A stretch of DNA of 64,000 nucleotides from Thioalkalivibrio sulfidiphilus (GTDB lineage: Bacteria > Pseudomonadota > Gammaproteobacteria > Ectothiorhodospirales > Ectothiorhodospiraceae): the NCBI RefSeq assembly GCF_000377945.1, contig NZ_KB898937.1, positions 1 through 64,000 of the forward strand, read 5' to 3'. Positions 9,662 through 62,373 of the stretch are shown piece by piece. Every line of letters starts with the position of its first letter. Positions within the stretch are counted from its first letter, which is position 1. The translations under genes were made by a program, and so were the position numbers. The notes under the pieces were generated by a model. That model did no database searches. It saw only the letters and a list, made by a program, of their open reading frames with translations, and was not told the DNA's origin.

Positions 9662-9825
9662 TGCCGCAGAGACGCAGAGGCGCGGAGAACTGAAAGGATC
9701 TGACAGGATTAACATGATTTACATGATGTAATACCAACACCGGTCAGGCCGGCTTTTTCAAATCCCGTTAATCATGTAAATCCTGTCACAAAAGATTTTC
9801 TCCGCGCCTCCGCGTCTCTGCGGCA
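9662..9825. repeat. Composite short-period inverted repeat (octad outer arms, decad inner arms)
   Basis: The outer arms (9662-9689 and 9798-9825) are built from 8-bp units of the CGCAGAGN type. The inner arms (9701-9728 and 9763-9788) are built from 10-bp units of the ACAGGATTNA type. The centre has CCGG-TCAGG-CCGG followed by five T (about 9740-9758), able to terminate fetAB transcription. It fills the gap between the convergent fetB and speE genes. Confidence 0.85.
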
Positions 9826-32858: not shown

Positions 32859-33377
32859 ATGTCCCAAGCCCAGTATCGCGTCATCCTCACCGGCACCCTG
32901 GCCAGCGGCGCCGACCCCGCCCAGGCCGAGGCCAACCTGGCGCAGCTGTTCAAGCTGCCGTTGGATCGGGCCGAGGCCTTGGTCAAAGAGGCACCGGTGG
33001 TGATCAAGAAGGGGCTCGACGAGGCCACCGCCCGTAAATACCAGGCGGCCCTGCACAAGGCCGGCTGGCTCTCCGAGGTGCGCCTCTGGGAGGCGGCGGA
33101 GAGCACCGACACCCCACCCGCCGCGCCGCCGGCCCCGGAACCCTCCCGTGCCGCCGGCCCCGCGCCCCTGGAGGCCAGCATCGCGCCGCCCGGCTCGCTG
33201 CTGGCCGACCCCCGGGAAGTTCCGCCGCTGCAGGTGGATCTCTCCGGCATCACCCTGGCCGAGCCCGGCGCGACCATCGGCGATCCCCGGGAAGTCCCCC
33301 CGCTGCGGGTGGATCTCTCCGAACTGAGCCTGGCCGAACCCGGCGCGCGTCTGGACGAGGACCCGACCGGGCGCTGA
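32859..33377 (+). CDS. Hypothetical protein with tandem 25-residue repeats
   Basis: 172 residues. The N-terminal 75 (MSQAQYRVILTGTL...KYQAALHKAGW) look like a small alpha/beta fold reminiscent of L7/L12 C-terminal-like domains. A Pro/Ala linker follows, then two near-identical repeats of the type DPREVPPLxVDLSxxxLAEPGA at about residues 114-165. Function unknown. Confidence 0.7.
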   Translation: MSQAQYRVILTGTLASGADPAQAEANLAQLFKLPLDRAEALVKEAPVVIKKGLDEATARKYQAALHKAGWLSEVRLWEAAESTDTPPAAPPAPEPSRAAGPAPLEASIAPPGSLLADPREVPPLQVDLSGITLAEPGATIGDPREVPPLRVDLSELSLAEPGARLDEDPTGR

Positions 33378-34592: not shown

Positions 34593-34611
34593 GATCAGGA
34601 ATCGCCGCAGA

Positions 34612-34789
34612 GGTGCGGAGCCGCAGGGCAAAGGCAATGGACAGGATGAACAGGATTTTTCAGGATTGATTAAAACCGAGTAAAGCTGCGTTTTCGATCT
34701 CAAGCTTTCATCCTGTACATCCTTCAAAATCCTGTGAATCCTGTCGTTCCTTGAATCCGTTCTTAGCGTCTCCGCGTCTCTGCGGCAGC
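34612..34789. repeat. Composite octad/decad inverted repeat
   Basis: Outer octad arms at about 34612-34635 and 34764-34789 (CGCAGAG type), and inner decad arms at 34639-34671 and 34708-34745 (ACAGGATTNA type). It fills the 233 bp between the sugar dehydrogenase and msrA. No terminator-like core is evident. Confidence 0.8.
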
Positions 34790-34825: not shown

Positions 34826-35485
34826 ATGTTCGGATTCCTCAAATCCGTTGAAATGCCCAGCCCGGAGGAGGCCCTGCCGGGTCGTGCCGAGGCGATGCCG
34901 GTGCCGGAGCGCCATGCCGTGCTGGGCACGCCGCTGACACCCCCCTGGCCCGAGGGCATGGCCGAGGCCGTGTTCGGCCTAGGCTGTTTCTGGGGCGCGG
35001 AAAAGACCTTCTGGAAGCTGCCCGGCGTCTACACCACGGCGGTGGGCTATGCCGCCGGCTACACCCCGAATCCCACTTACCGGGAGGTGTGCACCGGGCG
35101 CACCGGCCACAACGAGGTGGTGCGGGTGGTCTACGATCCGGCGAAGATCCGCTTCGCCGAGCTCTTGAAGGTGTTCTGGGAATCCCACGACCCCACCCAG
35201 GGCATGCGCCAGGGCAATGACGTGGGCACCCAGTACCGCTCCGGCATCTACCTTTCAGATCCCGCCCAACGGGCCGAGGCCGAGGCCTCCAGGGCCGCCT
35301 ACGGCGCGGCGCTCGCCGCGCGCGGGTTCAGGCCCATCACTACCGAGATCCTGGACGCGCCGCCCTTCTACTACGCCGAGGACTACCACCAGCAGTACCT
35401 GGCCAAGAACCCGGGCGGCTACTGCGGCCTGGGCGGCACCGGCATCCCCTGCCCCGGCTGGGAACCGGCGGATGCTAGGGCCTGA
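34826..35485 (+). CDS. msrA: Peptide methionine sulfoxide reductase A
   Basis: 219 residues with catalytic C54 in [13 protein letters not shown], plus [26 protein letters not shown] and a C-terminal [14 protein letters not shown] region carrying resolving cysteines. It reduces the S-epimer of methionine sulfoxide. A 45-residue N-terminal extension without signal features precedes the core. The 3' end overlaps the DUF924 gene by 14 bp. Confidence 0.95.
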
Positions 35486-36041
35486 GGCAGCCCTGCCGCC
35501 GGATGCGGCGGCGATCCTCGAATTCTGGTTCTCAAGCCGGGTCAAGCCCCGCTGGTTCCGGTCCACCCCGGAACTGGATACTGAGATCCGCGAGCGCTTC
35601 GAGGCCCTCTGGCAGCGGGGCCGCGCGGGAGCGCTGGACCACTGGGGCGAGACCGCAGAAGGCGCCCTGGCCCTGGCGATCCTGCTGGACCAGCTGCCGC
35701 TGAACATGTTCAGGGGTCACCCCGATGCCTTCTCCACCGAGGCCGCCGCACGCCGCGTGGCCGATGCCGCCATCGCCCGGGGCCTGGACCAGCAGTTGCC
35801 CCCGGAGCAGCGCGCCTTCCTCTACCTGCCCTTCATGCACAGCGAGGACCTGGACGACCAGGACCGCTCCGTGACCCTGTTCTCCCAGCCGGGCCTGGAA
35901 TACAACCTCAAGTGGGCCACCCATCACCGGGACATCGTCGCCCGCTTCGGCCGCTTCCCCCACCGCAACGCCATCCTCGGCCGGGAGAGCAGCCCGGAGG
36001 AGCAGGCGTGGCTGGAGAGCGAGGAGGGCTACGAAGCTTAA
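35472..36041 (+). CDS. DUF924 family protein
   Basis: 189 residues matching the DUF924 helical family: [47 protein letters not shown] and [18 protein letters not shown] are all diagnostic. Function unknown. Coupled to msrA. Its TAA stop abuts the heptad repeat at 36043. Confidence 0.93.
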
Positions 36042-36042
36042 G

Positions 36043-36135
36043 TGCGAAGTGTGAATTGGGAAGTGCGAAGTGTGAATTGGGAAGTTGGAAGGATAAACAA
36101 CACTTCGCACTTCCCAATTCACACTTCGCACTTCT
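36043..36135. repeat. Heptad inverted repeat (AAGTGNG family)
   Basis: The left arm reads AAGTGCG, AAGTGTG, AATTGGG, AAGTGCG, AAGTGTG, AATTGGG, AAGTTGG: seven 7-bp units. The right arm (about 36101-36135) is complementary. It overlaps the 3' end of the convergent amidotransferase-like gene and provides its stop codon. Confidence 0.9.
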
Positions 36136-36904
36136 GATGCGCCGCGTTCACCAGCGCCCTGAACAGCCCCTGCTGACTGCGCTTCTGGGGCAGGTACTCC
36201 GGGTGCCACTGCACGCCGATGGCGAAGCGCCGCCCGGTGTGCTCCACCGCCTGGATCACCCCATTGGCCTCCCGGGCCACCACCCGCAGGCCTTCGCCCA
36301 GCCGGTCCACGCCCTGGTCGTGCAGGGCATTCACGGGGCAGCGTTCGCAGCCCAGGATCTGCCGCAGCATGGAATCCGGCGCCAGGGCCACGGTCTTTCT
36401 CGGCAGCACGCTGCGGATCTGCGGATGCTCCTCGTGGAAACCCTCCAGCCCCTGGTGCAGGGAGCCGCCGCAGACCACGTTCATGAGCTGCATGCCCCGG
36501 CAGATGCCCAGCAGGGGCAGGTCCCGGTCCAGGGCGTCGCGGATCAGGGCCTGCTCCAGACGATCCCGGTCCGCATCCCCTTCCGGCGCATGGGTGAGCA
36601 GGGTGCGGCGCAGGGCCCACAGCAGCGGATAGACCAGCAGGCCCAGCAGGCGCTGACCCAAGCGCGGTTCGGCGGCCTCGTAGTCCTCCAGCAGGGTGTG
36701 GCGGTGGGCCCCGTAGAGCACCGGGTCCACGTCGGCGCCGCCGCCGATGATCAGGCCGTCGAGCCTGAGTTCCGCCCTCGGCCGGCGCGGGGTGATGCGC
36801 ACCGCCCGACCGCCGGCGCGGCGCACCGCCAACCAGGTGGCGTACCAGGCGGCCAGGCCGCCCCGGTCCGGGCCGGTGACGCCGATCAGGGGACGCTGGG
36901 ACAT
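36119..36904 (-). CDS. Class I glutamine amidotransferase-like hydrolase (peptidase C26)
   Basis: 261 residues with the GATase triad: Cys in LLGICRGMQLMN, and His/Glu in IGVQWHPEYL. This is the family of gamma-glutamyl-GABA hydrolase PuuD. It starts 1 bp after the amidoligase gene, so the two are one operon; this pairing is known in comparative genomics of amidoligases, where the hydrolase may reverse or edit the ligation. The last residues (QKCEV) and stop codon are encoded by a heptad repeat, so the native C-terminus was probably different. Confidence 0.88.
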   Translation of the reverse strand: MSQRPLIGVTGPDRGGLAAWYATWLAVRRAGGRAVRITPRRPRAELRLDGLIIGGGADVDPVLYGAHRHTLLEDYEAAEPRLGQRLLGLLVYPLLWALRRTLLTHAPEGDADRDRLEQALIRDALDRDLPLLGICRGMQLMNVVCGGSLHQGLEGFHEEHPQIRSVLPRKTVALAPDSMLRQILGCERCPVNALHDQGVDRLGEGLRVVAREANGVIQAVEHTGRRFAIGVQWHPEYLPQKRSQQGLFRALVNAAHQKCEV

Positions 36905-38166: not shown

Positions 38167-38257
38167 CAACGCAAAGACGCGAAGACGCAAAGGAACGCAA
38201 AATGTCTCCTTGATAAAAAACCTTTGCGTTCCTTTGCGTCTTCGCGTCTTTGCGTTG
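38167..38257. repeat. Perfect 35-bp inverted octad repeat
   Basis: Arms 38167-38201 and 38223-38257 are perfectly complementary over 35 bp with a 21-nt loop, built from CGCAAAGN/CGCGAAGN 8-bp units. It lies between the orphan terminator and the lutA start. Confidence 0.92.
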
Positions 38258-38309: not shown

Positions 38310-39086
38310 ATGACACCATCCCCCAAACCGCGCGTCGCGCTGTTCGTCACCTGCCTGGTGGATCTGTACCGCCCCGCAGTGGGCTTTGCCGCCGTGAAGC
38401 TGCTGGAGGATGCCGGCTGCCAGGTGTCGGTGCCCGACGCCCAGACCTGCTGCGGGCAGCCCGCCTACAACAGCGGCGACAACGCCAGCGCCGCCGCCCT
38501 CGCCCGACAGGTGATCGAGGCCTTCGAGGGCTACGACTACACCGTGCTGCCCTCCGGCTCCTGCGCCGGCATGATCCAGTACTTCCCGCGCCTGTTCGAC
38601 ACCGAACCGGACTGGAAGGCCCGCGCCCAGGCATTGGCGGACAGGACCCATGAGCTGATGAGCTTCCTCACCGACGTGTGCGGTGTCGAATCGGTGTCCG
38701 CCCGCTACCCCGAGAGGGTCACCTACCACGACAGCTGCTCCGGCCTGCGCCAGCTGGGCATCAAGCAGCAGCCGCGCACACTGCTTGCCAGCGTCGATGG
38801 CCTCAAGCTCGAAGAGATGAACGACGCGGAGGTCTGCTGCGGTTTCGGCGGCACCTTCTGCGTGAAGTACCCGGAGATCTCCGGGCGCATGGTGGATGAC
38901 AAGTCACACAACATCACCGCCACCGGCGCCAGCACCGTGCTGGGCGGCGACCTCGGCTGCCTGCTCAACATCGCCGGCCGCCTCAAGGCCACAGGAAGCC
39001 CCGTGAAGGTGCGCCACGCCGCCGAGGTGCTGGCCGGGATGACGGACCTTCCGGGACTTGGGGACCCGGAAGGTCGTGAGGGGTGA
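38310..39086 (+). CDS. lutA: Lactate utilisation protein LutA/LldE (CCG-domain)
   Basis: 258 residues with two cysteine-rich CCG domains (TCCGQPAYNSG and VCCGFGGTFCVKYPEIS), which bind Fe-S or heterodisulfide-type centres. With LutB and LutC it forms the L-lactate oxidising complex, feeding electrons to the quinone pool. The last codons and stop lie in a GTGAGGG heptad repeat. Followed by lutB after 71 bp. Confidence 0.95.
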   Translation: MTPSPKPRVALFVTCLVDLYRPAVGFAAVKLLEDAGCQVSVPDAQTCCGQPAYNSGDNASAAALARQVIEAFEGYDYTVLPSGSCAGMIQYFPRLFDTEPDWKARAQALADRTHELMSFLTDVCGVESVSARYPERVTYHDSCSGLRQLGIKQQPRTLLASVDGLKLEEMNDAEVCCGFGGTFCVKYPEISGRMVDDKSHNITATGASTVLGGDLGCLLNIAGRLKATGSPVKVRHAAEVLAGMTDLPGLGDPEGREG

Positions 39087-39152
39087 GGGGGCAGGAGTGA
39101 GGTACTACCACCTAACTCCAAACGACTATCGCCTAACGCCTAACCCCTAACG
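39073..39152. repeat. Heptad arrays (GTGAGGN and GTTAGGN families)
   Basis: 39076-39103 holds GTGAGGG, GTGAGGG, GGCAGGA, GTGAGGT. 39104-39152 on the minus strand holds GTTAGGG, GTTAGGC, GTTAGGC, GATAGTC, GTTTGGA, GTTAGGT. Both sit in the lutA-lutB gap; the first includes the lutA stop codon. Confidence 0.8.
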
Positions 39153-39157
39153 AGCCC

Positions 39158-40585
39158 ATGCACAACGCCCGAAGTCACGAATTCATGACCCGCGCCGTGG
39201 AGGCCCTCCACGACGAGACCCTGCGCACGGCGCTTGGCCGTGCCAAAGATGGTTTCGTGCTCAAGCGCCGGCTGGCCTTCGACGCCCTGCCCGAATACGA
39301 GCAGTTGCGCGACCGGTCCGTGGCGATCAAGAACCACACCCTGGAACACCTGGACCACTACCTGGAACGTTACGAGCAGGCGGTCATCCGCCAGGGCGGG
39401 CAGGTGCACTGGGCGGAGAACGCCGAGGACGCCCAGCGCATCGTGGTGGAGATCTGCCGCAAGGCGGGCGCGAAGAGCGTCACCAAGGGCAAGTCCATGG
39501 TGGGCGAAGAGGTCGGCGTGAACGCCGCCCTGGAAGCGGCGGGCATGGAGGTGGTGGAGACGGATCTGGGCGAATACATCATCCAGCTTGCCGGCGAACC
39601 ACCCAGCCACATCATCGCGCCGGCCGTGCACAAGACCAAGGGCCAGATCTCTGACCTGTTCCACGAACACCACGCCAAGTATGGACTGACGAAACGGCTC
39701 ACCGAGATCCCCGACATCGTCAACGAGGCCCGCCAGGTACTGCGCCAGAAGTACCTGGATGCGGACGTGGGCATCACCGGCGCCAACTTCCTCATCGCCG
39801 AGACCGGCTCCAACATCATCGTCACCAACGAGGGCAACGGCGATCTCACCAACACCCTGCCCCGGGTACACATTGTCACCGCCGGCATCGAGAAGGTGGT
39901 GCCCACACTGGAAGACGCCACCACGCTCCTTCGTCTGCTGGCCCGCAGCGCCACCGGCCAGCAGATCACCAGCTACACAACGCTGTCCACCGGCCCGCGC
40001 CGGGAAGCCGATTTTGATGGCCCCGAGGCGTATCACGTGGTGCTGGTGGACAACGGTCGCAGCGCCATGCTCAGGGACGAGTTCCGCGAGATGCTGCGCT
40101 GCATCCGCTGCGGCGCCTGCATGAACCACTGCCCCGTGTACGGCGCCATCGGCGGCCACGCCTACGGCTGGGTCTACCCCGGCCCCATGGGCTCGGTGCT
40201 CACCCCCCTGACCATCGGCCTGCGCGAGGCCAAAGACCTGCCCAACGCCTGCACCCTCAACGGCCGCTGCGCCGAGGTCTGCCCGGTACGCATCCCCCTG
40301 CCCGACCTGCTGCGCACCCTGCGCCACCGGCAGTTCCAGCACCATATCGGCACCCGCCGCGCCCGCTGGGCCCTGGGCCTCTGGTCCTGGCTCGCCCGGC
40401 GCCCGGGGCTTTATCACGGCATCACCCGATGGCAGGCGCGCGCGCTCAAGTGGCTTTCCGGCAGAACCGGACGGCTCAAGGCCGTGCCCCTGGCCGGTCA
40501 CTGGTTCAAGGGTGGCCGCGTGCTGCCCGCCCCCCAGGGCGAGACCTTCATGGACGCCTGGCGGCGCCGGGAGAAGCAGTCATGA
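39158..40585 (+). CDS. lutB: Lactate utilisation Fe-S protein LutB
   Basis: 475 residues: an N-terminal LUD domain (about 60-290, including KGKSMVGEEVGVN and TGANFLIAETGSNIIVTNEGNGDLT) and two 4Fe-4S clusters in CIRCGACMNHCPVYG and CTLNGRCAEVCPVRIP. The second cluster motif has one variant spacing residue (C-x5-C). A C-terminal membrane-associating helical region follows. The stop overlaps the lutC start. Confidence 0.95.
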   Translation: MHNARSHEFMTRAVEALHDETLRTALGRAKDGFVLKRRLAFDALPEYEQLRDRSVAIKNHTLEHLDHYLERYEQAVIRQGGQVHWAENAEDAQRIVVEICRKAGAKSVTKGKSMVGEEVGVNAALEAAGMEVVETDLGEYIIQLAGEPPSHIIAPAVHKTKGQISDLFHEHHAKYGLTKRLTEIPDIVNEARQVLRQKYLDADVGITGANFLIAETGSNIIVTNEGNGDLTNTLPRVHIVTAGIEKVVPTLEDATTLLRLLARSATGQQITSYTTLSTGPRREADFDGPEAYHVVLVDNGRSAMLRDEFREMLRCIRCGACMNHCPVYGAIGGHAYGWVYPGPMGSVLTPLTIGLREAKDLPNACTLNGRCAEVCPVRIPLPDLLRTLRHRQFQHHIGTRRARWALGLWSWLARRPGLYHGITRWQARALKWLSGRTGRLKAVPLAGHWFKGGRVLPAPQGETFMDAWRRREKQS

Positions 40586-41256: not shown

Positions 41257-41328
41257 CCCACAAGAAGGCCATACTAGGCGCCATATTTATGTATGGCACA
41301 CTGACTGGCGCTCTGCTATGTTCTCAGC

Positions 41329-41617
41329 ATGGGCAAGGACAGCTTTGAATGGGATCCCGGGAAGGATCTGATCAACCAGGCGAAACATCAGGTTTCGTTC
41401 GCCGAAGCCCAGTACGCATTCTGACCCTCGGCGCGTGATCGCCGAGGACCTGTCACACAGCCAGGGGGAGAAACGCTATTTCTGCTTCGGCAAGGTCCCG
41501 GATGGCATCCTGACTGTCCGCTTCACATACCGCCACGGGCTGATCCGAATCATCGGCGCAGGCTACTGGCGCAAAGGCAAACAGATCTATGAGCGCGAAA
41601 ACCAAATACACCGATGA
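41329..41617 (+). pseudogene. brnT: Frameshifted BrnT toxin
   Basis: The first 31 codons read MGKDSFEWDPGKDLINQAKHQVSFAEAQYAF then TGA. The rest of a typical BrnT (DPRRVIAEDLSHSQGEKRYFCFGKV...GYWRKGKQIYERENQIH) continues in another frame to 41617. Two bases appear lost at the junction (the family has a Leu codon there). The toxin is therefore inactive unless frameshifting restores it. The antitoxin gene overlaps the 3' end. Confidence 0.85.
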
Positions 41618-41828
41618 AGCCATTGGCCCCGTCAAGGTCATCCCTGACTTCCTGCCGCCACCGGAAGAGCTTGTTTTCAAGGAAGACACCGTCAAGGTGA
41701 CTATCGCCCTGAGCAGGGAAAGCGTGGAATTCTTCAAACGCGAGGCGCGCAAACACGATACTCAATATCAGAAAATGATTCGCCGACTTCTGGATGCCTA
41801 CACAGCGGCCCATAGCAAGGCGACGTAA
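41589..41828 (+). CDS. brnA: BrnA antitoxin
   Basis: 79 residues typical of BrnA: a flexible N-terminus and the ribbon-helix-helix region KVTIALSRESVEFFKREARKHDTQYQKMIRRLLDAYTAAH. It normally neutralises BrnT and represses the operon. It is intact while its toxin is broken, a usual decay order for toxin-antitoxin pairs. Confidence 0.88.
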   Translation: MSAKTKYTDEAIGPVKVIPDFLPPPEELVFKEDTVKVTIALSRESVEFFKREARKHDTQYQKMIRRLLDAYTAAHSKAT

Positions 41829-41894
41829 GTCGAGAAGATCGCCAAAGTCCGGCTCGAAGACGATGATACGGTCATTCTCGCTTGACATATGACA

Positions 41895-41942
41895 ACGGTT
41901 TTGGGCATCGATAATTCTGGATTGTGGATGCCCCCAAACCGT
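41895..41942. repeat. Hairpin upstream of the GIY-YIG gene
   Basis: Inverted repeat ACGGTTTTGGGCATC / GATGCCCCCAAACCGT with about two mismatches and a 17-nt loop, ending 19 bp before the GIY-YIG start codon. It could be an operator or part of the left recombination boundary. Confidence 0.4.
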
Positions 41943-41961
41943 CCACTACCAGGAAGAATGC

Positions 41962-42810
41962 GTGCCAACAGCAACTCTTAAAATATTTCTTGCATACGGC
42001 GACCCCAAAAGGCTGCGCACTGCCGAACTATCAAATTGGACCGGGAAAGCTGTTTCTGGACCTCGGAGTGAATTCGATAAGGTACTGGAGCGCGAGGAGT
42101 CACAAGGATCAGGTGTTTACTTCCTATCTGGCACTGACCCCGAGACTAACAAGAGCGCGATTTATATCGGCGAAGCGGAATGCATCAAGGATCGCGTGAA
42201 ATCTCATCTATCCAGAGACTTCTGGAATAACATCACGCTCTTTGTCACCAAGGACGAGAATCTGACCAAGGCGCACATTAAGTATCTGGAAGGTCGATTG
42301 ATTGATATTGCGCGCTCTACAGAACGGTCTATTGTGATGAACAGCCAAAGCAGTGGCGCAAGGCTACCAGAGTCAGACCGTGAAGATATGGAAATATTTC
42401 TTGAAAAAATGCAACAGGTGCTTCCGGTTCTTGGGGTAGAGGCATTTCTGGACAAATCCTCATCCACAGCACATGGAAAACAAAGAACGGATTTCCTTAA
42501 CTGCAACATCAAGGGGCTAACTGCAACCGGCTATTTGACGCCTAATGGGATTGTTGTGCTCAAAGGTTCCCAGGCTGTTCTGGAGGAGCGCGCCTCCGCC
42601 CAGAAATGGCCAAGCGTTTTAGTGCAGCGTAAGAAGCTTATTGAGGACGGCGCGCTTATTGAGAAAGACGGTGCTTACGTCTTCGCAAAGGATATCGAGT
42701 TCACAAGCCCAAGTTCGGCTGCAGCCACGATTCATGGTGGTAGCGCTAACGGGTTAACAGCGTGGGTAAATAAGGATGGGATTCCGCTTAAGCAGCTGCA
42801 AAACGTATAA
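41962..42810 (+). CDS. GIY-YIG nuclease domain protein with C-terminal DUF4357
   Basis: 282 residues. The GIY-YIG signature is spread as GVYFLSGT...SAIYIGEAE...DRVKSHL with the catalytic Glu likely in YLEGRLI. The C-terminal part (about 190-280; GIVVLKGSQAVLEERASAQKWPSVLVQRKKLIEDG) matches DUF4357. GTG start with AGGAAGAA upstream. Codon use is visibly less GC-rich than the flanking lut genes, indicating recent acquisition. Its stop codon lies inside a candidate attC site. Such proteins occur near restriction or defence loci, but role is unknown. Confidence 0.85.
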   Translation: MPTATLKIFLAYGDPKRLRTAELSNWTGKAVSGPRSEFDKVLEREESQGSGVYFLSGTDPETNKSAIYIGEAECIKDRVKSHLSRDFWNNITLFVTKDENLTKAHIKYLEGRLIDIARSTERSIVMNSQSSGARLPESDREDMEIFLEKMQQVLPVLGVEAFLDKSSSTAHGKQRTDFLNCNIKGLTATGYLTPNGIVVLKGSQAVLEERASAQKWPSVLVQRKKLIEDGALIEKDGAYVFAKDIEFTSPSSAAATIHGGSANGLTAWVNKDGIPLKQLQNV

Positions 42811-42877
42811 CAAGTCGCTCGTTCGGGCGCAAACCACGCTGCGCTTTGTTTGCGCCGCACAGCTTCATCGTTATGGG
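42804..42877 (+). other. Candidate integron attC recombination site
   Basis: Starts with R''-like GTATAAC (42805-42811) and ends with R'-like GTTATGG (42870-42876), the form of attC cores. Between them GGCGCAAAC and GTTTGCGCC pair to form the folded arm, with intervening unpaired bases. The GIY-YIG stop codon falls inside the left core and the parE stop codon begins at the cut point (G|TT at 42870/42871), as expected for cassette boundaries. No integrase gene is present. Confidence 0.55.
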
Positions 42878-43182
42878 GTGAGCCGCTTTCGCCAATAGCC
42901 GGGTTTACGAGCATGGTGCGCAAATGCAACTACCGTGATCGTTTGCTGGTTCTGAACGGCGATGAGAGAGAAAGGAAATCTATGGAGAATGAGCTTCTTC
43001 GCACCCATTCCAGCCGCCTCTCCTGTCACCGGAGTAACCGGTGGATTTGGCTCCTTGAGAAGCTGCGTTGCGTGCTCAAAGGCATCTATCAGTCGTTCAC
43101 CGAGCCCGGATTCTTCCTTCTCGTACCAGGCCGCGGCTTCTTCCAACTCTCGGGCAGCTTCCCTGCTGACTTTTACTTCCAA
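42871..43182 (-). CDS. RelE/ParE-family toxin
   Basis: 103 residues with the ParE fold: VKVSREAARELEEAAAWYEKEESGLGERLIDAFEHA and LILHRFPFSLIAVQNQQTITVVAFAHHARKPGYWRKR. Likely targets gyrase or mRNA, as family members differ. It is separated from the antitoxin gene by 2 bp and lies in reverse orientation to the surrounding genes. Its stop codon is formed by the first bases of the presumed integron cassette. Confidence 0.88.
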   Translation of the reverse strand: MEVKVSREAARELEEAAAWYEKEESGLGERLIDAFEHATQLLKEPNPPVTPVTGEAAGMGAKKLILHRFPFSLIAVQNQQTITVVAFAHHARKPGYWRKRLTP

Positions 43183-43184
43183 AA

Positions 43185-43424
43185 TCAGTCCCTTATGCGT
43201 GCTCTTGCGAGGGCAAGAACCTCATCGACATCAAGCAACTCGGCTTTCCCAGACTCTATCTCATTGATTCGACGGCAAATTTCAATATCCCAGGCTTCGG
43301 CCGCATCATGTTCCGCTGGACCGTCCAAACTTGCCACTAAGTCTCGGGCCAATTTTGCCCGATCCCTCTCGGAGAGGGTCATGGCAGCGTCCTTGAGGGC
43401 CTCGAGTTCGACCGTACGCATCAT
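43185..43424 (-). CDS. Addiction-module antitoxin (TIGR02574-like)
   Basis: 79 residues: MRTVELEALKDAAMTLSERDRAKLARDLVASLDGP...EICRRINEIESGKAELLDVDEVLALARARI, matching the short antitoxins that pair with ParE-like toxins. Start at the ATG pair 43424/43421; longer in-frame starts up to 43535 are not family-like. First gene of the toxin operon. Confidence 0.85.
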   Translation of the reverse strand: MMRTVELEALKDAAMTLSERDRAKLARDLVASLDGPAEHDAAEAWDIEICRRINEIESGKAELLDVDEVLALARARIRD

Positions 43425-43471
43425 TTTGTTCCGCGAGGGTGGGTAATAAGGAAATGATGCAGAAAGATACA

Positions 43472-43480
43472 CCCCATAAC
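43472..43480 (+). other. Candidate attC left core of the second cassette
   Basis: CCCCATAAC is followed by AAGGGAAGCC. Its first eight bases are the exact complement of TTATGGGG at the presumed cassette start (42871-42878), which is what an integron cassette requires. A matching right half could not be found downstream, so this site may be decayed. Confidence 0.4.
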
Positions 43481-43598
43481 AAGGGAAGCCACTCTGACGC
43501 CAATGCCCATGGGACATCGGAGTCATGACTCCCATTGCACATCCACTGACACCGAGAATGCTCCTTTGTATGTTTGATTCTTGAGAGGAATGGAAGCC

Positions 43599-44083
43599 AT
43601 GTATGTTCCACGAGTCTGGGCAAGAGACACACGTAGCGCGACGCTCCGGGACGGCCGCACTGTTCCCGTCTCCGCCTGGGGATGGGGTGATGATCAGATC
43701 AGCGCACAGGCCATGGCCTCTGAGCGTCTACGCAGGGCATTGCACCGCATCCACAGACACAAGCCCGTCCCTCACAGCTATGACTACGAAGGCCTCCCTC
43801 TGCACGACTCTGCCGTTCCCAGAAATGCTTTCGTGCGCGTCTCACACCCAAGCCATGGCGGGCTGGCGTCAGCAGACCGCCTTGGGACTATCCTCGTCTG
43901 GAGCGTGACGACCAACACGCGTTCTCAGCCTGGCTGCGCGACTATGAGCAGGCCTCCACACGCTTTGCCACCTGCCGCTACCTCGAGACCATCGGCAATG
44001 GCCGGCCCAGCGGGGAAACTCGGCGATTACAGGAACTGCACGACCGGGTAACGAAATCCCAGGAACCCTTACCGCTCGCCTGA
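43599..44083 (+). pseudogene. Hypothetical protein gene with internal deletion/frameshift
   Basis: An N-terminal part (MYVPRVWARDTRSATLRDGRTVPVSAWGWGDD... about 70 codons) runs in one frame. The C-terminal part (FRARLTPKPWRAGVSRPP...AWLRDYEQASTRFATCRYLETIGNGRPSG...) continues in another frame to TGA at 44081. The two halves look like the ends of a larger conserved protein of unknown function, with the middle missing near 43805-43825. Assignment of both halves to one family is from pattern memory. Confidence 0.6.
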
Positions 44084-44142
44084 ACCCCGGATATCCGATC
44101 TCTGCGGATCAGGCTCCATCACATCTGAGGAAATCGCGCCCC

Positions 44143-44784
44143 ATGCATGGCCCCAGCCCATTGACAACCCACCCCATGGAAGGCTTCCCCCAGGTGTGCT
44201 TCATCAAGAACACCGTCAGCAACCCGAACATCATCATCGGGGACTACACCTACTACGATGACCCCGACGGCTCGGAGAATTTCGAGCGCAACGTCCTTTA
44301 CCACTTCCCCTTTGTCGGCGACAAACTGATCATCGGGCGGTTCTGCGCCATCGCACGGGGCGTGAAGTTCATCATGAACGGCGCCAATCACAAGCTCTCC
44401 GGGATCTCCACCTACCCGTTCCAGATCTTCGCCAACGGCTGGGAATCATTCGCGCCCGCCGAGGATGAGTTTCCCTACAAGGGTGACACGGTGATCGGCA
44501 ACGATGTCTGGATCGGCTATGACGCGCTGATCATGCCCGGCGTTCATGTCGGCAACGGCGCGGTGATCTCGGCCCGCTCCGTGGTGACGAAGGACGTGCC
44601 CGCCTACAGCATCGTCGGCGGCAACCCGGCCAAGGTGATCCGCCAGCGTTTCACGGACGCGGAGATCGAATCCCTGGAGGCCATCGCCTGGTGGGACTGG
44701 CCAGTGGAGAAGATCACCCGGCATCTGGCGCAGATCATGGCGGGCGATGTGCATGCGCTGCTCGCTTGCGCTGATGACAGCTGA
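44143..44784 (+). CDS. CatB/Vat-type xenobiotic acyltransferase
   Basis: 213 residues with left-handed beta-helix hexapeptide repeats (VIGNDVWIGYDALIMPGVHVGNGAVISARSVVTKDVP) and the catalytic-His segment MNGANHKLSG, then the family's STYPFQIF. Members acetylate chloramphenicol or streptogramins, but most chromosomal homologues have no proven drug substrate. CatB genes are frequent integron cassettes. A start at 44176 is also possible. Confidence 0.88.
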   Translation: MHGPSPLTTHPMEGFPQVCFIKNTVSNPNIIIGDYTYYDDPDGSENFERNVLYHFPFVGDKLIIGRFCAIARGVKFIMNGANHKLSGISTYPFQIFANGWESFAPAEDEFPYKGDTVIGNDVWIGYDALIMPGVHVGNGAVISARSVVTKDVPAYSIVGGNPAKVIRQRFTDAEIESLEAIAWWDWPVEKITRHLAQIMAGDVHALLACADDS

Positions 44785-44799
44785 AGACAAGACTATATC

Positions 44800-44880
44800 C
44801 TCTCACGGGGACACGGAGACACGGGGAGAAAACAGAATCAAGACAAGATTTTCCTCCGTGTCTCCGTGCCCCCGTGAGAG
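44800..44880. repeat. Octad inverted repeat (CACGGAGN family)
   Basis: Arms 44800-44832 and 44849-44880 are near-perfect complements with a 16-nt loop, built from CACGGGGA, CACGGAGA, CACGGGGA 8-bp units. Confidence 0.88.
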
Positions 44881-44956
44881 AACATGTTTTCGCCCTTCTT
44901 AAAGTCAAAGCAGACCTACAAACCCTCCTGAAACATCACTGACAGCGCACCCAACT

Positions 44957-54564: not shown

Positions 54565-54678
54565 GGACTGGACAGGATTTACAGGATTCGAACAGATTGA
54601 ATGCCTTTGATCACTCCTGTTAATCCTGAAATCCTGTCCAATGTTCTTTCTGCGCCCCTGCGTCTCTGCGGCAGGGAA
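54565..54678. repeat. Decad inverted repeat plus octad arm
   Basis: Decad arms 54565-54597 and 54612-54640 (ACAGGATTNA type), then a single octad arm 54645-54678 (reverse of CGCAGAGN), which runs up to the nfi stop codon at 54679. Confidence 0.85.
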
Positions 54679-55341
54679 CTATCGACGCGAGGCCAACTGG
54701 TCCGCGCGCCGGATCGGCTCCGGCAGCCGGTAACGGGGCGCGGCCTGCAGCACCAGCTCGATGGCGGTCTCCAGCGACACCCGGTGGCCGATGGAGACGT
54801 ACACCGGCTTCACGCCCGCACGGGTGCGCAGGACCGCGCCGATCACATCATCCCCGTCCCGCAGCGCACACCAGGCACCCCGCGCTGGAGGCACCTCGTC
54901 GTGCTCGCCGATCAGGCGGGTCTTGCCCACGCCGATGGCAGGCAGGTCCGTGAGCACGCCCAGGTGGGCGGCGATGCCGAGCCGGCGGGGATGGGCGATG
55001 CCCTGGCCATCGCACAGCAGCAGGTGGGGAAGCGCGGATAATTGCTCCAGCGCCTCCAGCACCGCCGGCAGTTCTCGAAACGAGAGCAGGCCCGGCACGT
55101 AGGGAAAGCTCGTGGGCCGGCGCGCCACCGCATCCTCCACGGGCACGAGATCCGGCCAGGAGAGCACCGAGACCACCGCCCGGGTGATCCGGCCGCCGTC
55201 CTCGAAACCCACGTCGACGCCGGCCACCCGTTTGAGCGGGCCCAGCCGGTCCTCCCGCACGACCAGCGGCGCGAGGCGTGCCTGCACCGCCCGCGCCTCG
55301 GCCGGCGTCAGGTGCCAGGCATGGACGTGGCGAAGCCTCAT
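54679..55341 (-). CDS. nfi: Endonuclease V
   Basis: 220 residues with the Nfi motifs: VAGVDVGF (metal Asp), [14 protein letters not shown] wedge, [21 protein letters not shown] and [11 protein letters not shown]. Cleaves DNA next to deoxyinosine. Divergent from the PLD-helicase gene across 84 bp. Confidence 0.95.
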
Positions 55342-58726: not shown

Positions 58727-58756
58727 ATCGTTATCCTGGAAGGAGACAATCCAAGC

Positions 58757-58996
58757 CTAGCCCGAACATTTCATAAATTCGCGCGATGATCGCGCAGGAT
58801 ATTGGCCGCACAGGGGATTTTCCGAGGGAGCGCCGTATCGGGCTATACGGCCGACTGAGACAAATCCGCCGGGAGCGGATTTGAACAGCCGAAGGCTGGC
58901 CCGAAGGGCGGACTCCAGGGATGGAGTCCGTAAAAATCCCCTGTGCGGTCAAGAGACAAGCGAGGGCGCGTGCAATTTATGAAATGTTCGGGCTAG
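58757..58996. repeat. MITE-like palindromic element, copy 2
   Basis: Perfect 23-bp terminal inverted repeats (58757-58779 with 58974-58996, starting CTAGCCCGAACATTTC). The interior matches copy 1 with one mismatch over 81 bp. A 71-bp block (58861-58931) absent from copy 1 contains three hairpins: CAAATCCGC/GCGGATTTG, CAGCC/GGCTG and GGACTCCA/TGGAGTCC. With the REP palindrome it accounts for most of the 340-bp gap after the helicase gene. Confidence 0.9.
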
Positions 58997-59032
58997 AAAC
59001 ACCATGACCGTGTGTCATGGTTCTTTTCCCGG

Positions 59033-59341: not shown

Positions 59342-59400
59342 TCTCTCACCGCAACCCTCTCCCTGAGAGAGAGGGAGTCAAGAAAGATTGGGGGCCTTTA

Positions 59401-59503
59401 CTTCTCACTTCAAAATTCACACTTCGCACTTGATTTCCCACTTCCCAATTCACACTTCCCAACTCCCCTTCCCACTTCCAACTTCCCCCTTCACACTTCA
59501 TCC
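59401..59503. repeat. Heptad array at the recG 3' end
   Basis: A run of CTTCNNA/ATTCACA-type heptads (CTTCTCA, CTTCAAA, ATTCACA, CTTCGCA ... CTTCCCA, ATTCACA, CTTCCCA). Same family as 36043-36135. The recG stop codon TGA lies in its last unit. Confidence 0.85.
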
Positions 59504-61558
59504 CACCCTCCCATACTCCTCCGCGCCGCTCAGCCAGCGCGCGATGAGCGGCTCCACGTTCTCCGGATGGGACTGCATCAACCGGCCGGCGGCGTCTTTC
59601 ACCGTATCCAGCAGATCCTGGTCGCGCAGCAGGTCGGCAATGCGAAACTGCATGTCGCCGGTCTGGCGCGTGCCGAGCACCTCGCCGGGACCACGCAATT
59701 CCAAGTCGATGCGCGCGATCTCGAAACCGTCGGTGCTGGCGCGCAGGGCGTCCAGGCGCTTGCGGGCAGTATCGGAGAGCGGCGGACGGTAGAGCAGCAC
59801 GCAGGAACTCTCCGCCGTGCCCCGCCCCACCCGGCCGCGTAACTGGTGCAGCTGGGCAAGGCCCAGGCGCTCGGCGTTCTCGATGATCATCAGCGAGGCA
59901 TTGGGCACGTCCACGCCCACCTCGATCACCGTGGTGGCCACCAGCAGATGGATCTCCCCGGCCTTGAAGCGGGCCATCACCGATTCCTTGTCCCTGGGCT
60001 TCATGCGCCCGTGCACCAGGCCCACGTTCACGTGGGGCAGCGCCTCGGTGAGCTGCGCGAAGGTGTCCTCCGCCGCCTGGGCCTGCAGGGCCTCGGACTC
60101 CTCGATCAGGGTGCACACCCAGTAGGCCTGACGACCCTCGGCCACGGCGGCACTGATGCGCTCCACCACTTCGTGGCGGCGCTTGTCGTTCACCGCCACG
60201 GTCTTGATGGGCGTGCGACCCGGAGGCAGCTCGTCGATCACCGAGTAATCCAGGTCCGCGTAGGCGGTCATGGCGAGGGTGCGCGGGATGGGCGTGGCGG
60301 TCATGATGAGCTGGTGGGGCAGGCGTCCGTCCCTGTTGCCCTTCTCACGCAGGGCCATGCGCTGGTGCACGCCGAAGCGGTGCTGCTCGTCGATCACCAC
60401 CAGGGCCAGGTCGTCGAAGCCTACGTCCTCCTGGAACAGGGCGTGGGTGCCCACGGCCACCCGGGCGCGACCCTCGGCCACTTCGGCAAGCGCCTCCCGG
60501 CGGGCCCTTGCGGTGAGCTTGCCGGACAGCCACGCCACGCTGATGCCCAGGGGGGCCAGCAGGTCGCTGAAGTTGCGGAAGTGCTGTTCCGCCAGGATCT
60601 CCGTGGGCGCCATGACCGCCGCCTGGTAACCGGCCTCCACCGCGTGCAGACAGGCGGCCACGGCCACCAGGGTCTTGCCGGCGCCCACGTCGCCCTGCAC
60701 CAGGCGCAGCATGGGATGAGGGCGCGCCATGTCGGTGCTCAGTTCCGCGATCACCCGCTGCTGGGCGCCGGTGAGGGCGAAGGGCAGCCGTGCCTGCAGT
60801 TGCGCGAACAGTTCGCCTTTGACCTTGATTGGAGGGGCCGGCTCGTCCGTGGTGCGTGCGCGCAGTCGGGCCAGGCTCAGGTGATGGGCCACCAGTTCCT
60901 CGAAGGCAAGGCGGCGCTGGGAGGGATGCCGTCCGTCGAGGAGCGCGGCGACCGGCACATCCGGCGGCGGACGATGCACGGTGCGAAGCGCGGTCTCCAG
61001 GTCCGGTAGACCTGCGCCATTGAGCACACCCGGCGGCAGCCAGTCCGGCAGCCTGTCCAGACGCGCCAGGGCCTCATCGGTGAGGCGGCGCAGGCTCAGT
61101 TGATGCAGACCCTCGGTGGTGGGATAGATGGGTGTGAGGGTGTCATCCACGCTGGCGGTTTCGTCCAGCACCGCCCGGTACTCGGGGTGAACGATCTCGA
61201 GACCCGCCTGCCCACGCCGCGCCTCGCCGAAGCAACGCAAGCGCAGGCCCCGGACCAGGTTCTGCTGCTGGGCGGCTGAAAAATGAAAGAAGCGCAGGGT
61301 GATGGAACCGGTGCCGTCGCTGAGGCGCACCAGCAGCATGCGCCGGCCGCGGAACACCACTTCCGAGTGATCCACGACCCCTTCCACCACGCCCTCGTCA
61401 CCCGGACGCAGGCTGCCCATGGGCATGACCCGGGTGCGATCCTGGTAACGCAGGGGCAGGTGGAACAGCAGGTCCGTCACCGTGCGGATGCCGATCTTGG
61501 CGAGCTTCTCGGCCAGCTTGGGGCCGACGCCCTTGAGGACGGTGACGGGTTCGGTCAT
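59498..61558 (-). CDS. recG: ATP-dependent DNA helicase RecG
   Basis: 686 residues. N-terminal wedge/OB domain with GVGPKLAEKLAKIGI, Walker A GDVGAGKTLVA, DEQHRFGVHQR, TATPIPRTLA and the C-terminal LHQLRGRVGRG. Remodels stalled forks and junctions. Full family length. The stop lies in a heptad repeat. Confidence 0.97.
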   Translation of the reverse strand: MTEPVTVLKGVGPKLAEKLAKIGIRTVTDLLFHLPLRYQDRTRVMPMGSLRPGDEGVVEGVVDHSEVVFRGRRMLLVRLSDGTGSITLRFFHFSAAQQQNLVRGLRLRCFGEARRGQAGLEIVHPEYRAVLDETASVDDTLTPIYPTTEGLHQLSLRRLTDEALARLDRLPDWLPPGVLNGAGLPDLETALRTVHRPPPDVPVAALLDGRHPSQRRLAFEELVAHHLSLARLRARTTDEPAPPIKVKGELFAQLQARLPFALTGAQQRVIAELSTDMARPHPMLRLVQGDVGAGKTLVAVAACLHAVEAGYQAAVMAPTEILAEQHFRNFSDLLAPLGISVAWLSGKLTARARREALAEVAEGRARVAVGTHALFQEDVGFDDLALVVIDEQHRFGVHQRMALREKGNRDGRLPHQLIMTATPIPRTLAMTAYADLDYSVIDELPPGRTPIKTVAVNDKRRHEVVERISAAVAEGRQAYWVCTLIEESEALQAQAAEDTFAQLTEALPHVNVGLVHGRMKPRDKESVMARFKAGEIHLLVATTVIEVGVDVPNASLMIIENAERLGLAQLHQLRGRVGRGTAESSCVLLYRPPLSDTARKRLDALRASTDGFEIARIDLELRGPGEVLGTRQTGDMQFRIADLLRDQDLLDTVKDAAGRLMQSHPENVEPLIARWLSGAEEYGRVG

Positions 61559-61586: not shown

Positions 61587-61748
61587 ATGGACAGGATGAA
61601 CAGGATAAGGGCGAAAGAAATTTTGACAGGATTGACATGATTTACAGGATTTTTTCTTCAAGGCCTTTAATCCGGTCAATCATGTCAATCCTGTCCAGTC
61701 CTACATGCTGATCGTTCAATCCTGAAAAATCCTGTTCATCCTGTCCAT
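61587..61748. repeat. Nested decad inverted repeats
   Basis: Outer 20-bp perfect arms (61587-61606 with 61729-61748, core ACAGGATGAACAGGAT) enclose inner 18-bp perfect arms (61625-61642 with 61678-61695, core CAGGATTGACATGATT). It fills the recG-ridA gap. Confidence 0.9.
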
Positions 61749-61752
61749 GCCT

Positions 61753-62133
61753 TTAAAGTTCAAGGACGGCGTCCATTTCCACCTGCGCACCCTTGGGCAG
61801 GCTGGCCACGCCGATGGCGGCGCGGGCCGGATAGGGTTCGCTGAAGTATTCGGCCATGACCTGGTTGACCAGGGCAAAGTGGGCGAGGTCGGTGAGGAAG
61901 ATGTTGAGCTTGGCCACGTCCGCGAGGCTACCACCGGCCGCCTCGGCCACCGCCTGGAGGTTGTCGAACACCCGGCGGATCTGCGCCTCCATGGGGCCGT
62001 CCACCAGGTCCATGGTGGCGGGGTCCAGCGGGATCTGCCCGGACAGGTAGACGGTGCTGCCCACCTTCACGGCCTGGGAGTAGGTGCCGATGGCCTGGGG
62101 GGCCTTGTCGGTGCGGATGATCTCGCGGGGCAT
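61753..62133 (-). CDS. ridA: RidA family reactive-intermediate deaminase
   Basis: 126 residues: [51 protein letters not shown] and [25 protein letters not shown], with the catalytic Arg in PARAAIGV. Hydrolyses enamine/imine intermediates. GGAGCC precedes the start. Confidence 0.95.
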
Positions 62134-62167: not shown

Positions 62168-62373
62168 GAATGGACAGGATTAACAGGATTTTTCAGGATT
62201 TACAGGATGAAAGACAATGCGAAAAGAAGAAGAGCTTAGACACGATTAACATGATTTACAGGATTAAAGGCACTCTTCTTTGAATCATGTAAATCTTGTT
62301 AATCCTGTCTGATGTTTTTCTTCAGATGTCTTAATCCTGTGAATCCTGAAAAATCCTGTCCATCCTGTCCATC
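62168..62373. repeat. Nested decad inverted repeats between ridA and spoT
   Basis: Outer arms 62168-62215 and 62327-62373 and inner arms about 62238-62268 and 62279-62310 are all ACAGGATTNA-type units; the outer arm ends 5 bp before the spoT stop codon. Confidence 0.88.

Follow-up and report, generated by a model that had tools for sequence, protein, structure and literature searches.

Why do short tandem repeats lie exactly at stop codons, even supplying the last codons of genes, in the genome of a soda-lake sulfur bacterium (G000)? The question is posed by the gap between a DUF924 gene (35472-36041, + strand; PF06041, E 6.9e-63) and a convergent gene for a peptidase C26/class I glutamine amidotransferase (36119-36904, - strand) in a 64-kb stretch of DNA, the whole of which is called the window. 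Re-reading of the sequence confirmed repeats at all five sites named in a preliminary description (C26, DUF924, lutA, recG and nfi), and Pfam supports the identities of the DUF924, C26, Endonuclease V and RecG genes. The C26 gene ends with ..CAT CAG AAG TGC GAA GTG TGA (stop at 36119-36121), its K-C-E-V-stop being composed of AAGTGCG/AAGTGTG heptads; these last four residues and the stop lie past both Pfam domains. The DUF924 stop (TAA, 36039-36041) is fused to the array, its two A's being common to the AAGTGCG that begins at 36040. The heptads described at 36119-36135 are indeed placed at a stop, but they belong to a palindrome that fills the gap and has perfect 34-bp arms, of which they form one end: a left arm (36040-36073, + strand) with units AAGTGCG AAGTGTG AATTGGG AAGTGCG AAGTGT overlaps the DUF924 stop, a spacer or loop (36074-36099) contains further heptad copies, and a right arm (36100-36133, - strand) provides the KCEV-stop of C26. 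The hairpin of 36039-36135 folds with -62.5 kcal/mol (z -12), and the DUF924 and C26 messages are predicted to share one stem (-62.5 and -61.7 kcal/mol, z below -11). Pairs of AAGTGNG units number 14 within the window, compared to 0.13 from shuffling.

The other sites were compared with their equivalents in related genomes, above all the same-genus sister strain G004, with which the window shares syntenic blocks of mostly 91-97% identity (about 94.5%). At recG (59498-61558, - strand; Pfam), the array is at the TGA (59498-59500) as described, the TGA opening the first heptad, TGAAGTG, but the array (59396-59500, - strand; AAGTGNG heptads) is a single unpaired arm with negligible folding (z -0.7); a hairpin is thus not formed by every element. 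The AGTGGCT family occupies the recG stop of G004. The position of the end of recG is identical in 15 of 15 genomes examined, and the tail EEYGRVG-stop is independent of array type, being found in eight of the 15, of which five are array-free and the three others have arrays and stop with TGA, TAG and TAA. A gene for a CCG-domain protein (38310-39086, + strand; PF02754), with which the name lutA is compatible though not proven, ends with CGT GAG GGG TGA within GTGAGGG units that encode its REG-stop, the element (39076-39152) continuing as CCTAACG units; the corresponding position in G004 holds a CACAGAGG octad element. The lutA-like tails GREG and DREV accompany TGAGGSG-type heptads (G000 and G001), EKE and EIK accompany CACAGAGG octads (G004 and G002), and EPG accompanies another octad (G003), a grouping discordant with the sisterhood of G000 and G004, which hints that alleles were exchanged or that conversion recurred. 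The C26 tail is HQKCEV in G000 and G004, four amino acids longer than in G003, where RE is followed by an octad palindrome; the gap itself has one extra 21-nt block in G000 relative to G004. The tails of C26 and the lutA-like protein differ among orthologues by two to four residues. The TAG (54679-54681) of nfi (endonuclease V; 54679-55341, - strand; Pfam) has an octad arm a few nt away, in an element (54571-54674) that combines this arm with a nonad hairpin 3' of the gene. The nfi tail is LASR[RHQ] in G000, G001 and G002; in G004 the stop has been lost, and 20 amino acids are read through into the hairpin that G000 and G004 have in common.

The further claim that the repeats change protein C-termini holds at C26, lutA, C13:10185 and the nfi of G004, where comparison of the 3' ends of orthologues finds tails lengthened or replaced, but not at recG, where the tail is the same either way. 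At C13:10185, the protein of G000 has gained 11 amino acids by reading into an array that G004 also carries. Heptads encode the last codons of 13 of 751 genes. Among 506 orthologous ends of G000 and G004, tail length changed in 9 of 62 that are adjacent to arrays (14.5%) and in 35 of 444 others (7.9%; Fisher p = 0.09), so C-terminal change was rejected as a general effect of arrays, and new tails made from arrays are restricted to a small minority of proteins. A stop lost into an array offers proteins an easy way of acquiring new tails, and C-terminal tails beside such arrays should not be taken as functional.

The placement of repeats was quantified in 864 kb of G000 (28% of the total), with genes called by a purpose-built ORF scorer based on a codon model instead of a standard caller. 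Intergenic arrays number 121 (99 heptad, 12 octad and 10 nonad), compared to none of this type in shuffled noncoding DNA, and at least eight heptad families, the octads and the nonads share one layout. With the expectation that arrays are positioned uniformly within the same gaps, 41 of the 121 arrays lie within 5 nt of a stop versus 13.9 expected (0 of 2000 simulations as high), as the preliminary description anticipated in proposing that edges are non-random relative to stops; within the same 864 kb, six arrays lie near starts versus 6.3 expected, which is no excess. Eight of the nine heptad arrays that are mostly inside coding sequence sit at the 3' end of the gene. The density of arrays per kb is 1.49 in convergent gaps, 1.04 in tandem gaps and 0.31 in divergent gaps. 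The sense strand is purine-rich in 51 of 56 cases next to stops and pyrimidine-rich in 15 of 17 next to starts; read along that strand, the purine-rich arm of an element precedes the other. Because the two arms of one palindrome are not independent, whole elements were placed as units instead. In convergent gaps, 36 edges of whole elements are at stops versus 34.2 expected, the lack of any excess being due to the elements filling the gap (median fill 0.81). In tandem gaps, whole elements have 26 edges at stops versus 13.8 expected and six at starts versus 11.8 expected; for tandem elements at least 15, 25, 40 or 60 nt from the start, the stop edges are 19 versus 9.7, 14 versus 8.5, 10 versus 7.4 (p = 0.14) and 5 versus 3.6, respectively. 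Gap filling and the avoidance of start regions together account for most of the stop-hugging, perhaps leaving a residual excess, and persistence of the tandem excess with a buffer of 15-25 nt from the start may mean that geometry is not the whole story. Stop codons within the heptads were rejected as a cause: the units ATTCAAA, AAGTGGG and CAAGATA are open in all sense-strand frames.

From the placement, it had been suggested that repeats target stop codons or spread from them, replacing C-termini as they go. The array-level excess and the residual two-fold excess in tandem gaps favor this idea, as do two apparent gains accompanied by altered tails (C7:31580, and G004 at C13:16840) and, among the matches listed from other phyla, the 23 of 59 AGTGGCT arrays with both neighbors called that lie within 5 nt of a stop versus 14.4 expected, a rough count since genes at the 80 cross-phylum loci are longest ORFs only. 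Nevertheless it is very unlikely, because the excess vanishes for whole elements in convergent gaps and fades in tandem gaps with exclusion of start regions, because the arrays into which nfi and C13:10185 were extended are already present in both strains and were read into after loss of the stop, and because the C-terminus of recG is constant whatever lies past its stop. Thus, the observation of placement is upheld and the reading of invasion from the stop is not: for the most part, the repeats get halted at the stop codon instead of originating there, and the codon is probably best viewed as fencing in a hairpin element that evolves rapidly and is probably transcribed.

Periodic arms characterize 71 of the 94 palindromes located in gaps, and the complementarity of arm to arm (96.6%) exceeds the likeness of unit to unit (76%). 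A palindrome is found in G004 in 58 of the 81 gaps that have one in G000, versus 38 of the 283 gaps that lack one, a persistence that could also be caused by shared ancestry together with permissive sites. Among palindromes that could be compared with G004, 30 agree in the orientation of the spacer and 10 were flagged as inverted, of which at least six are clear by eye (C1:19316, C4:4274, C6:24731, C9:9685, C18:36209 and C19:17970) and the others ambiguous. Unrelated arms were scored in 11 of the 58 gaps with palindromes in both strains, a count that hinges on the k-mer threshold and exceeds the true number, at least one scored swap (C1:19305) being a phase difference within a single family. 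In clear examples, AGTGGC is exchanged for AAGTGNG at C14:36516, an octad for a nonad at C2:21272, and a heptad palindrome for a REP-like one bearing GTAG at C6:28345 and C7:22258; families have also been swapped with unchanged C-termini at recG and elsewhere. Template switching has been reported to homogenize the arms of inverted repeats and to invert their spacers (PMC8604942), and both arm homogenization and spacer inversion, as expected of inverted repeats shaped in this way, are present here. If so, the spacer inversions between strains would be a countable record of template switching.

The reading preferred here, with a probability of about 0.6 on the basis of sequence comparison, is that these are hairpin elements which template switching has shaped and coding constraint confines, and which are probably kept as hairpins at the 3' ends of genes. 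They are dispersed palindromes with arms made up of successive 7-, 8- or 9-nt units, and they lie just 3' of genes, often filling the gap. Replication slippage would generate and trim units; switching of the polymerase template between arms would copy one arm onto the other and flip the spacer; and recombination at shared units may carry copies from gap to gap. Growth would be limited by coding sequence on one side and by start-region signals on the other, so that edges pile up at stop codons, and a gene deprived of a nearby stop would read into the array and end at the next in-frame stop. The elements would function as transcribed stem-loops at the 3' ends of flanking messages, terminating transcription, protecting the 3' end or insulating it from transcription in the opposite direction; this would account for the retention of palindromes even as their sequences are replaced. 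Against such a role are palindromes between divergent genes, where it makes no sense, such as the octad palindrome at 38167-38257 with ACGCAAAG/ACGCGAAG units and perfect 35-bp arms. An intrinsic terminator consists of a GC hairpin followed by a U-tract. Canonical terminators of this kind were found at one of 77 array-bearing gene ends versus 28 of 359 other ends; the elements do not have the features of intrinsic terminators, and the scarcity of the latter at array ends counts in favor of the preferred reading.

A possible but rather unlikely alternative is that selfish or neutral repeats accumulate wherever selection tolerates them, the 3' flanks being merely the most permissive places and the hairpins having no function. 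Such repeats would be expected to be depleted near starts and in divergent gaps, as the arrays are, and to turn over rapidly in sequence, as the arrays do; the existence of arrays without a hairpin, such as that of recG, and the occurrence of AGTGGCT heptads in what are, judging from record titles, at least nine phyla also agree with this alternative. It accounts less readily for the marked symmetry of the palindromes together with their sense-strand polarity, although template switching alone could yield the symmetry, and for the occupation of one gap by different families and also by REP-like palindromes; the scarcity of canonical terminators at array ends counts weakly against it. That the elements are of the REP/BIME type, moved by a RAYT transposase, is very unlikely. 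REP and GTAG or CGTC palindromes are short, extragenic and mostly 3' of genes with convergent or unidirectional neighbors (Di Nocera et al. 2013, PMC3733652), and the elements here are likewise short extragenic palindromes, dispersed and mostly 3' of genes, with GTAG-bearing palindromes (CGTAGGTCGGGCTTCAGCCCGAC) replacing heptad palindromes in some gaps. However, the GTAG/CTAC foot is present in only four of 71, for which reason membership of the REP/RAYT group was rejected, the arm sequences are many and unrelated, REPs have not been described as having arms composed of tandem units, and spacers are inverted here.

The closest known likeness to these hairpin elements is with the heptamers GGGAATC and GGGGA(C/T)T of Xanthomonas and Nostoc, which are intergenic, belong to one family per genome and were interpreted as G-quadruplexes (Rehm et al. 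2015, PMC4692102). Their G- or purine-rich strand is sense 0-50 nt from stops and antisense upstream of starts, copies overlap stops, 70-75 inverted pairs occur per Xanthomonas genome, few lie between divergent genes, and the loci that flank them are reported to be more stable (PMC4692102). The arrays of G000 resemble them in being enriched in intergenic DNA, in a period of 7 (the 99 heptad arrays), in their absence from shuffled DNA and in the reversal of strand composition between stops and starts. Thus, stop-hugging heptads of the same polarity and with inverted pairs are already known, Xanthomonas and Nostoc each having a single G-rich family (PMC4692102). Unlike these, G000 has at least eight heptad families as well as octads and nonads, and between close strains the families swap and the spacers flip. 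G-quadruplexes were rejected for most families by direct reading of the sequence, ATTCAAA, AGTGGCT and CAAGATA having no GGG tracts. The TAACTGA direct repeats of marine Beggiatoaceae, Cyanobacteria and Bacteroidetes are also heptad arrays in intergenic DNA, scattered patchily among phyla, but they are almost never inverted and lie mostly just upstream of start codons (MacGregor 2015, PMC4679880), whereas those of G000 are palindromic and 3' of genes. The reported cases of template switching in inverted repeats are from coding genes of yeast and from genes for RNA hairpins (PMC8604942, PMC8794818), with homogenized arms and inverted spacers like those found here, where the process itself would be read from its products. 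No Rfam family matched the 64-kb window at its gathering score. Many families per genome, exchange of families within one gap and inversion of spacers look new, no description of them having been found.

An exact 27-nt AGTGGCT pattern occurs in at least 111 stretches from at least nine phyla by record titles, and among the matches listed AGTGGCT is on the sense strand in 31 of 40 near-stop cases. An exact four-unit ATTCAAA pattern was matched in G000 alone and is absent from the 199 other genomes of a 200-genome sample of the phylum; on these matches, the ATTCAAA family is not broadly shared, in contrast to AGTGGCT. A tentative generalization is that the palindromes may belong to a widespread and so far largely undescribed class in which many unrelated families of 7-9-nt units, all with one polarity, take each other's place at a given post-stop site; other families or REPs would overwrite an element with the hairpin kept, spacers would flip, and part of the class would share one heptad across at least nine phyla, the 3' ends of genes being continually rewritten with the stop as a fence. 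If swapping with retention of the hairpin holds genome-wide, it would be a natural experiment on whether gene 3' ends need shape or sequence.

Several other elements of the window vary on the same theme. A nested palindrome between convergent genes (9662-9825) has octad outer arms and nonad inner arms; a similar one recurs far away at 34604-34786, with a different inner module in G004. An octad palindrome of the CACGGAGA type (44795-44885) is 3' of a gene with a differing C-terminus in G004. A nonad palindrome (61587-61752) abuts a Rid-like gene (61753-62133, - strand), and its inner nonad module has a near-identical copy in the neighboring gap of G004; the stop of gene 62379 (- strand) is 5 nt away from nested nonad palindromes (62170-62373), whose inner module is replaced in G004. 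Elsewhere in G000, the gaps C14:36516-36651 and C11:6810-6959 contain another hairpin repeat (CCCTCACCCC...CCCTCTCCC / GGGAGAGGG...GGGGTGAGGG) as the spacer between heptad arms, and on contig C4 of L014 a nearly perfect (CCCACTT)n array of approximately 20 units (39656-39796) overlaps the end of a small called gene. A palindromic element of approximately 250 bp (GCCCGAACATTTCATAAATT...TTGGCCGCACAGGGGATTTT...GTTCGGGC), bounded by CTAG at about 58752-58997 of the window and similar to sequence at 1-160, is missing from the equivalent gap of G004 and is likely a MITE with an empty site. A 75-bp tandem duplication (85% matches) lies within a coding region at 33206-33347. The codon-based caller gave no gene at 41257-44175, where ORFs of 100-280 amino acids are present and the DNA is possibly foreign.
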